A stretch of DNA of 51,787 nucleotides from assembly GCA_913042205.1 (NCBI GenBank), contig CAJWIY010000008.1, positions 1-51,787 on the forward strand. The letters are read 5' to 3'. The notes under the pieces are model-generated. The model ran no database searches. It had not been told where the DNA came from and saw only the letters and a list, made by a program, of their open reading frames with translations. A program made the translations under genes and the position numbers. Numbering within the stretch: position 1 is the first letter of the stretch; the number at the start of each line of letters is the position of its first letter. Of the stretch, positions 48,618 to 51,787 are shown in pieces. This stretch comes from an uncultured Gammaproteobacteria bacterium. GTDB lineage: Bacteria; Pseudomonadota; Gammaproteobacteria; Pseudomonadales; Litorivicinaceae.

Positions 48618-50017
48618 GACTTGAGTTCCTTGAACGCGTCGATGGCCCGCTGTCTCGATGACTTGAGATCAACAATAGGCGCCGGATATCGATCTGGAAG
48701 CGTAGCCGTCCAGGGCGAATGGCGCCGCTTGACTGGGACCGAGGCGAGCTCGGGTATAAATTGAGTCACGTAATCCGCGTTTGGATCGTGTGTCTCTCCC
48801 TGGCTCACAGGATTAAATACCCGGAAGTAGGGAGCCGCGTCCGTCCCCGTTGAGGCACTCCACTGCCAGCCGCCATTGTTCGACCCTAAGTCTGAATCCA
48901 CAAGATATTCCATGAAATGAGTTTCGCCGATCCGCCAGTCGCAAAGTAAGTTCTTGGTCAGGAACTGTGCCACGACCATGCGAACACGATTATGCATCCA
49001 ACCCGTTGCCACAAGTTCTCGCATACCGGCGTCAACGATCGGTATACCAGTTCTCCCTTTCTTCCAGGCATCAATATCCGAAGGATCGTTGCGCCAACGT
49101 AAACACTCAGTCTCTGATCGAAATGCCTTATTTTTTGAAAGCTTCGGAAAGCCAACTAACAAGTGTTGATAGAAGTCACGCCATATTAATTCGTTAATCC
49201 AAGAAAACGCGTGATTAGGGAATTCCCATATCGGCAGGTTAAGCGCATGTTCCGCAGCCCGCACGCACTGTCGAGGCGACAACAATCCCCGAGCAAGGGC
49301 ACCCGACAAACGACTGGTTCCAAGTACCGAGGGGTTGTTCCGGTTCATTTCGTAGTCTTTAAGCCGCTTGGCGACGAATTCATCAAGTGACGCATGAGCA
49401 TCGGCCTCGGTTTTTGGAAAAAGAGAGAGGTCTGAGTCTGGGCGATTACAGATCGGGTCCCATGTGTTCGGCTTTACCGATTCTCGACTACGACCGTCGA
49501 CGTCAAATGGTCGTGTAGCACGCTCCTGATAAATCGACAGCCACCGTCTCTTGAACGGACTGAAAACTGAGTAGTATCGATTGTCTCCGGTCAGGACTGT
49601 GCCCGGTTGCAGTAGGACGCGATCAACATAGGTATGTACAGCGACGTCGGGGAGACGCTCAAGGATCTGATGATCCCTGATACGCTCATTCCACTGATAT
49701 TCCTGGTTTAGGTAAAGATCTGTGACAGATCGAGACTCACAATAGTCTGCGACCCAGGCAACTTGCGCTCGGTAGCTATCAAGCCGAACCACCTCGAGGT
49801 TGATTCCAAGGGCCGCAAGCTGAACAGACAGGCTCCGCAACAGCTGTTCGGTGTAATAGAGACGGTTTCGACCGTAGTGAAAGTCTTTCCAATCCAAGTC
49901 AGCGGTGAGAAATATCGCAGAGATGACCACGTCTGACTGGCAATCCAGGGCAGCCGACAATGCGGCGTTATCGTTTACGCGGAGGTCATCCCGAAACCAA
50001 ACCAGACGATGTTGCAT
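48614..50017 (-). CDS. phrB: Deoxyribodipyrimidine photolyase (class I CPD photolyase)
   Basis: Repairs UV-made pyrimidine dimers with blue light. The 467-residue protein has the antenna-domain start LVWFRDDLRVNDNAAL, the flavin-domain segments PNHAFSWINELIWRDFYQHL (two pieces), GIPIVDAGMRELVATGWMHNRVRMVVAQFL (seen in parts), DWRIGETHFMEYLVDSDLGSNNGGWQW (seen in parts) and the ending YFRVFNPVSQGETHDPN. I choose the ATG at 50017, which has a GAGGAG site four bases upstream, over a GTG at 50029. It heads an operon of five genes running to 44824. Cryptochromes share the fold, but the intact motifs favour a repair enzyme. Confidence 0.95.
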   Translation of the reverse strand: MQHRLVWFRDDLRVNDNAALSAALDCQSDVVISAIFLTADLDWKDFHYGRNRLYYTEQLLRSLSVQLAALGINLEVVRLDSYRAQVAWVADYCESRSVTDLYLNQEYQWNERIRDHQILERLPDVAVHTYVDRVLLQPGTVLTGDNRYYSVFSPFKRRWLSIYQERATRPFDVDGRSRESVKPNTWDPICNRPDSDLSLFPKTEADAHASLDEFVAKRLKDYEMNRNNPSVLGTSRLSGALARGLLSPRQCVRAAEHALNLPIWEFPNHAFSWINELIWRDFYQHLLVGFPKLSKNKAFRSETECLRWRNDPSDIDAWKKGRTGIPIVDAGMRELVATGWMHNRVRMVVAQFLTKNLLCDWRIGETHFMEYLVDSDLGSNNGGWQWSASTGTDAAPYFRVFNPVSQGETHDPNADYVTQFIPELASVPVKRRHSPWTATLPDRYPAPIVDLKSSRQRAIDAFKELKS

Positions 50018-50151: not shown

Positions 50152-50574
50152 ATGTTCTTCGGGCGTTTTTTAATTATGCTGAATTGCGGTTTATATGCCG
50201 CGCTGGCGGTTTGGGCGCTAGTTTTACCAATAACACTGTTCGAGGCGCTATCTATCGCGGCATCTACAAGGGCAGCCGTAATTGAGTTACAGGTATTAAT
50301 AGCTGGTTCTTTTTTAGGGTTTTGTTTCCTCGTAGGTGCCGGGATTATAGATAAACGGAAGACAAAGCGCAGTTTGGTTGGTCTGTTTATCATCAACGCG
50401 GCTTGGTTTTTTACTCGCTGTATCACTCTGCTCGAGGGGCTACCGGAACAGAATTCAACTTTTATATACATGGGCTTTGAGTTCACGATGCTGTTGCTAC
50501 TGCTAATCGCTTTGAGGCTTGTGACCGGACCAAAGGGACGTACATTGTTTCGTCAGGAGGATGCGACCTTTTAG
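50152..50574 (+). CDS. Small four-helix membrane protein, unknown function
   Basis: A 140-residue hydrophobic protein with four likely membrane helices (about residues 8-30, 45-66, 75-93, 103-123) and a short basic tail. The layout resembles the DUF4345-type small membrane proteins, but I cannot assign a family with confidence. It is divergent from phrB with about 134 bases between the starts, and its stop codon overlaps the stop of the convergent FAD oxidoreductase by four bases. Confidence 0.65.
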   Translation: MFFGRFLIMLNCGLYAALAVWALVLPITLFEALSIAASTRAAVIELQVLIAGSFLGFCFLVGAGIIDKRKTKRSLVGLFIINAAWFFTRCITLLEGLPEQNSTFIYMGFEFTMLLLLLIALRLVTGPKGRTLFRQEDATF

Positions 50575-51467
50575 CGATTTAATCGCTCTGCTGCCTCAAT
50601 ACCGCTGAGATAGGCGCCCTCGACGCGCCCGCCTGCGAGGTAGTCCCCAGCAACCCACAACCCCTCGTCGATCTCAAAAACACCTTTTTGGGTGGTCAAT
50701 GTAGGGTCAGTAGGGCGCGCAAAGCGCCACCGATGCGCAATAATCGGCTTTACTGATACCCCGAAGATCGTCTCCAATGCTGTGTCGATTTGGTTTTGCA
50801 CACTTGCGGGCTCATCCTCGATATGGATGGCAGACCAATCAGGTTTGGCATGAGTGACAACATAGCTTGATTCACGACCGGGCTTACTTCTCTCTGTAGA
50901 GATGAAATCAAACACGTTATGGTCGCCGCCGAATAGGGCGTCAAGAGGGTTATCGTGTCGATCTCTCAAACTAGTCTCAAGATCTGAAACCACCGTCCAT
51001 GTTGGTTCCATAGTGAAACGGGACGCAATGTCTCCCATATCATAAGACGGGAGTAGGCTGGTCATCTGATCAACTGGCACGGTGACCAATACCTGGCTGG
51101 CGGTATACACATCGCCATCCGTCGACGTGAGGTGAAATTGGTTATCATGATGGGAGATTGTGGCGACCTGTAATTGCGTTGTAATGGTCAACGATTGCGC
51201 CAGATAGCGCCCCATCGCGTTCATATAGGGGGTCCCCACAAAGCGCTCTTGAAAGTCTGGTGATGCCATCGCGTGACCATTAATAAAGGTACCCATGCGA
51301 GGCCTCCAACGCTTTACGAACCCCGCGTCGACAGCATGACTCACGACTTCCTGAAAGCGCGGTTCACGGGCCGTAAAAAACTGCGCGCCGATATCGACCC
51401 GTAAACCGTCGATACGTTTCGACGCCAGCCGGCCACCAGGCCCACGACTTTTTTCAAAAATCTCCAT
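50571..51467 (-). pseudogene. FAD-dependent oxidoreductase (renalase-like, COG3380), 5'-truncated by a sequence junction
   Basis: The body matches predicted NAD/FAD-dependent oxidoreductases of the renalase/amine-oxidase group: FEKSRGPGGRLASKR near the start, DIGAQFFTAREPRF, a VLVTVPVDQM segment, HRWRFARPTD and the flavin-contact ending WVAGDYLAGGRVEGAYLSGIEAAE. The family should begin some 30 residues earlier with a beta strand and the GxGxxG FAD-binding loop, but here the first ATG (51467) gives only MEIFEKSRG. The missing N-terminus is replaced by unrelated sequence beyond a T/A-rich stretch at about 51448-51460. So the gene is intact at its 3' side and cut at the 5' side, most likely by an assembly join rather than a mutation in the living cell. 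Confidence 0.8.
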
Positions 51468-51787
51468 CTAGCTGCAGATGGGCCCTTGTTGATGACTTGA
51501 ATACTAGATGACGTCTCGATTTCGTATCGTACTGAGGGAAAATCAATAAATTTCTCGACAACCTCAACTTTTGGTGCATTATCATTCTCCCACTTATCGA
51601 CAAGTCTTACAATCTCAATATAAACATTTTTCTCATCTTGCAGGTTTACCTTGTTACAACTACTTGAAAAAAAAGCGATCACAGGTTTATGATCCGAAGG
51701 AAGTAATTCAGCTCTATCATAATACTTTAGACATATTTGACTACCTTTTCGACTTGAAAACATTATTCGATCGCACCAGGCGGGTTC
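51449..51787 (-). CDS. Fragment of eukaryotic-type inositol polyphosphate 5-phosphatase (OCRL/INPP5B-like)
   Basis: Read from the window edge leftward, the frame is open and starts with EPAWCDRIMF, the substrate-site motif of inositol polyphosphate 5-phosphatases (P-A-W-C-D-R-I). A second catalytic motif, LPSDHKPVIAFF, follows at about residue 34. After that come EIVRLVDKWENDNAP and IQVINKGPSAARWRF, resembling the linker and beginning of the ASH domain that follows the phosphatase in OCRL and INPP5B. The stretch is visibly AT-richer than the rest of the window. The reading then runs into the oxidoreductase gene in a different frame, so only this end of the protein is present. Such proteins are eukaryotic and I know of no bacterial OCRL-like enzyme. 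Confidence 0.75.

Follow-up and report, generated by a model that had tools for sequence, protein, structure and literature searches.

An OCRL/INPP5B-type 5-phosphatase fragment at the right end of a gammaproteobacterial contig is most likely the product of a chimeric join

The right end of contig C8, from the genome assembly of an uncultured gammaproteobacterium, combines sequences of two different origins that meet at a sharp break. It is almost certainly a chimera, in which a piece of a eukaryotic 5-phosphatase gene was joined inside a bacterial amine oxidase gene by a sequencing or assembly error, so the join would exist in no cell. The window analyzed here is the whole contig (51,787 bases). 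The assembly to which it belongs totals 2,022,764 bases, spread over 93 contigs, and is rated at 98.36% completeness and 0.84% contamination. The contig ends 325 bases past the break, and the features on either side are collected in Table 1. The opposite, left end of the contig (window 1–3000) was also inspected and bears no sign of a join, because it is colinear with two related genomes from its first bases, starting at base 1 with G017 (92% identity) and at base 3 with G011 (81%).

Table 1. Features around the break at the right end of contig C8 (window coordinates).
Feature	Position	Strand	Basis and remarks
Bacterial FAD/NAD-binding amine oxidase gene, 5'-truncated by the join	50571–51462	-	Pfam PF01593, E 1.3e-21; orthologues G017, G011, L003
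Junction 14-mer, minus strand GATTTTTGAAAAAA	51449–51462	-	Bacterial by alignment with L003 and L004; also fits the tail frame
Foreign (eukaryotic) tail, predicted end of an OCRL/INPP5B-type 5-phosphatase catalytic domain, linker and start of the ASH domain	51463–51787	-	Pfam; OCRL-1 (4cmn_A); no homology to relatives; GC; open at the contig end

The 325-base tail codes for the C-terminal part of a lipid and inositol phosphatase of the OCRL/INPP5B type. Read on the minus strand from the last base of the contig (EPAWCDRIMFSSRKGSQICLKYYDRAELLPSDHKPVIAFF...), it is open through 51463, and its translation from base 51787, EPAWCDRIMF...LLPSDHKPVIAFF...SSIQVINKGPSAARW, is free of stops. The inositol polyphosphate 5-phosphatase family of the OCRL/INPP5B type is eukaryotic and is defined by the motifs P(A/S)WCDR(I/V) and SDH(K/S)PV at the C-terminal end of the catalytic domain. 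Both motifs are present in the tail: a first-pass annotation, made from the letters of the contig, had reported PAWCDRI and SDHKPV on the minus strand, and they are read as such in the translation and in the alignments. The same annotation had described their spacing as normal; the distance is OCRL-like, with two extra residues in the alignment to OCRL-1. In Pfam searches, PF22669 (Exo_endo_phos2) matches the tail at profile positions 248–287 of 288 with an E-value of 1.8e-7 (31.4 bits, over the cut-off of 27), and the best solved structure is that of OCRL-1 (4cmn_A, E 2.2e-8). These two matches uphold the earlier assignment of the right edge to a eukaryotic OCRL-like 5-phosphatase on the minus strand. 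The further proposal that the phosphatase leads into the start of an ASH domain agrees in position with PF21310 (OCRL-like_ASH) at profile positions 3–38 of 109 (E 0.0031) and with the OCRL-1 chains 3qbt_B (E 0.0098) and 3qis_A (E 0.031) that match the second half of the tail, but not in score, as PF21310 reaches 18.1 bits, under its cut-off of 27. The match covers 36 of the 109 profile positions and is cut off by the join.

The solved-structure search (E up to 1) returned 18 distinct sequences that match the tail. After OCRL-1 come the type II inositol-1,4,5-trisphosphate 5-phosphatase and the PtdIns-3,4,5-trisphosphate 5-phosphatases 1 and 2 (INPP5B, SHIP1 and SHIP2), so that the best of these relatives are eukaryotic 5-phosphatases; two unrelated proteins were also found, at E 0.073 and 0.3. 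The PF22669, PF21310 and OCRL-1 matches confirm the observation made on the tail, which by its sequence, and as far as 108 codons can show, is the C-terminal part of an OCRL/INPP5B-type 5-phosphatase. A bibliographic search on OCRL in bacteria and on OCRL evolution gave nothing bearing on the tail in the portions of the literature it reached.

One alternative is that a bacterial gene of the endonuclease/exonuclease/phosphatase superfamily has been taken for that of a eukaryotic enzyme; this is extremely unlikely. Among 398 genomes of the phylum, PF22669 gave matches in 7, and none of 14 controls had one; the weak matches in 6 of the 397 genomes other than that of C8 speak for this reading. However, all six fall under the cut-off and lie at profile positions 21–217, away from the PAWCDR–SDHKPV end, whereas the C8 window is the only one over the cut-off, and at the C-terminal edge of the profile. 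The tail also goes on to a linker and the putative start of an ASH domain, and its best solved relatives are eukaryotic 5-phosphatases. For PF21310, neither the 398 genomes of the phylum nor the 14 controls gave a match, in a search that had no positive control; this zero carries little weight and is no proof of absence, because the assembly of C8 itself, which holds a piece of the domain, gave no match either. The tail carries the signature of a eukaryotic family, whose eukaryotic character is supported by the PF22669 and PF21310 surveys of the phylum.

On the bacterial side, the break falls inside the amine oxidase gene. Of the 38 genomes searched (own assembly included), 25 contain this gene; among the other genus members in that set it is present in 15 of 21. 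The G017 protein is 91% identical to that of C8, with an open frame of 333 codons, and the G011 protein is 80% identical, with 324 codons; the L003 reading frame, of 324 amino acids, has a complete nucleotide-binding N-terminus. The C8 amine oxidase lacks the GxGxxG N-terminus that is present in all seven of those orthologues whose N-termini were inspected, a subset of the amine oxidase loci. The gene is broken in C8 because the tail takes the place of its N-terminus, and the ATG of the listed open reading frame, at 51467, falls inside the tail. Starting at window base 50001, DNA alignments with the two nearest relatives give 92.8% identity over 1,462 bases with G017, the nearest, and 83.2% over 1,463 columns with G011, the next. 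Both alignments end at the same base, 51462, so that homology stops abruptly at a single position in both relatives; in ungapped side-by-side comparison, the bases past 51462 have no similarity to G017 or G011. In G017 the amine oxidase extends about 28 codons beyond the point of the break, with the nucleotide-binding motif GAGIAG. Past its N-terminus lies a divergent NfuA-like gene with PF01106 (NifU, E 4.9e-19) and PF01521 (Fe-S_biosyn, E 2.9e-9).

One side of the join is foreign in composition as well as in its best relatives. The GC content of the tail is 37.8% as against 51.1%, and among 2,046 windows of 325 bases, taken at 25-base intervals along the rest of the contig, none is as poor in GC (mean 51.0%, sd 3.5%, minimum 38.5%). 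At third codon positions the GC fraction is 0.306 in the tail, compared with 0.478–0.578 in nine large open reading frames of C8. The tail DNA occurs at a single place in its own assembly. A search for the protein it encodes in 38 genomes (own assembly and relatives) found it in one, as did a search in 390 genomes of the order; the two sets overlap, and the one positive is each time the assembly of C8 itself. A search with six exact peptide stretches and then with tblastn, which finds close relatives only, returned nothing in a collection of 84,980 species.

These data bear on a recent horizontal transfer, by which a eukaryotic OCRL-like gene would have been inserted in the amine oxidase gene of the bacterium. 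In favor of a transfer, the 325 bases of the tail form a single unbroken open frame and share a contig with bacterial DNA. Against this, its composition is not adapted to the host, it is present in 0 of 37 related genomes and 0 of the 389 other genomes of the order (overlapping sets), and it sits at a contig end, where it breaks a gene carried by most of the other genus genomes searched; in addition, another contig of the same bin, C63, shows the bacterial continuation of the locus, though from another allele. We consider a transfer very improbable. The eukaryotic DNA could also have come from a giant virus of eukaryotes rather than from a eukaryotic nucleus, which would leave the join artefactual. 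Giant viruses carry eukaryotic genes, but nothing specific to the tail points to such a donor. The search with six exact peptide stretches and then with tblastn (close relatives only) returned nothing in viral contigs; a degenerate WCDRI/DHKPV pattern (exact matches only) also had no match in viral contigs, and nothing was found in a phage collection. A viral donor is given hardly any credence. All three candidates, namely the horizontal transfer, the bacterial EEP-superfamily gene and the giant-virus donor, were rejected on the evidence set out for each.

The exact position of the join is blurred by a short stretch of sequence. The first-pass annotation had begun the foreign segment at 51449, but the DNA alignments carry bacterial homology through 51462, which moves its start 14 bases to the right. 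The intervening 14 bases are A/T-rich and suit either gene. In the frame of the tail they encode FLKK, preceded by an Arg codon straddling the join, and they still agree with the ASH match; the PF21310 and 3qbt_B matches pass the junction to residue 113 of the translated tail (114 for 3qbt_B with a longer query). A hybrid frame of 148 codons on the minus strand runs from the tail into the bacterial side across 51463 without a stop. The boundary is best placed at 51462/51463, with 51449–51462 regarded as ambiguous, and the 14-mer is a possible candidate for microhomology at the join. An A/T-rich stretch of roughly this length, if common to both genes, could act as the bridge in a chimeric molecule. 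For multiple displacement amplification (MDA) of human DNA, one study reports overlaps of 12–13 bases as the most favored (PMC5372508).

A bacterial continuation of the locus, though in another allele, is found elsewhere in the same assembly. The G017 stretch beyond the break matches the very end of contig C63 (8505–10033 of 10,033 bases, 87% identity). Its last 3,029 bases (C63:7005–10033, L032), the part examined, are colinear with G017, G011, G001 and G009 along almost all of the stretch. The end of C63 carries the amine oxidase N-terminus (MTHTPIAIIGAGVAGLAAARQLPPTSYVVFEKSRGPG), which runs out with the contig, and adjoining it, as in the relatives, is the NfuA-like gene (L032:2251–2880, minus strand). 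C63 thus agrees with the expected locus in its genes, their order and its end point, but its last ~210 bases belong to another allele, and it is evidence that the bacterial locus continues normally in the population. It is not the exact continuation of C8, because it represents a different allele or strain: the two contigs overlap by 30 homologous bases, of which 7 differ, and the end of C63 is G012-like. Over the last 113 bases C63 shares 95% identity with G012 and 60% with G017; in 30-base steps, the last ~210 bases are 93–100% identical to G012 and 40–80% to G017, and from ~210 to 600 bases 12 of 13 steps place the contig closer to G017. In contrast, the end of C8 stays G017-like as far as the break, with 94% identity over its final 113 bacterial bases. 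The bin therefore holds two alleles of the locus, whether strain mixture, recombination or a further misjoin brought them together.

L032 itself is a mosaic, in which the last ~210 bases, comprising the 5' end of the amine oxidase gene and the sequence upstream, are G012-like and the 3-kb piece as a whole is 89% identical to G017; it may be a recombined allele, or the bin may contain a second join. In the region of window 51433–51462, no more than 30 bases separate the C8 join from the end of C63; the two lie in different alleles of the same gene, and both fall in the conserved motif FEKSRGPGGR. Their near-coincidence perhaps reflects a strain-driven break in the assembly.

The chimeric reading of C8 is favored because of the break at 51462, the truncated gene, the contig end 325 bases further on, the foreign composition, the absence of the tail in relatives and the continuation on C63. 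The earlier judgment that foreign sequence joined by assembly is far likelier than a transfer holds up on these grounds, with the qualification that C63 carries another allele. The GUNC paper lists misassembly as a source of chimeric contigs; counting against a chimera, it calls misassembly relatively rare in MAGs (PMC8201837). Under the chimeric reading, a 325-base piece of an OCRL/INPP5B-type gene would stem from a eukaryote that was present in the sample or the library and would have become joined to the bacterial contig within the amine oxidase gene, most likely at the shared A/T-rich stretch of about 14 bases, if microhomology played the part we infer. Two routes are equally plausible: a chimeric molecule could have formed in the library or during amplification, or the assembler could have extended the contig wrongly where the assembly graph has a strain-dependent break. 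The tail would then be without function in the bacterium, and the chimera matters as quality control only: an assembly rated 98.36% complete and 0.84% contaminated still carries a 325-base eukaryotic scrap, and the 148-codon hybrid frame could be mistaken for gene transfer. Trimming C8 at 51462 removes the tail; trimming at 51448 drops the ambiguous 14-mer too.

Compared with the OCRL/INPP5B enzymes, the C8 tail shares PAWCDRI and SDHKPV at nearly the OCRL spacing, followed by an OCRL-like linker and then the putative start of an ASH domain. Unlike them, it has 108 codons, and the catalytic core and the rest of the ASH domain are absent from the contig. The domain order of OCRL and INPP5B also includes a RhoGAP-like domain, which is likewise absent from the contig. 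As for the join, C8 resembles the chimeric contigs of metagenome and single-cell assemblies (misassembly as in PMC8201837, MDA chimeras as in PMC5372508) in displaying an abrupt join of two unrelated sources near its end, at a short, possibly shared stretch.
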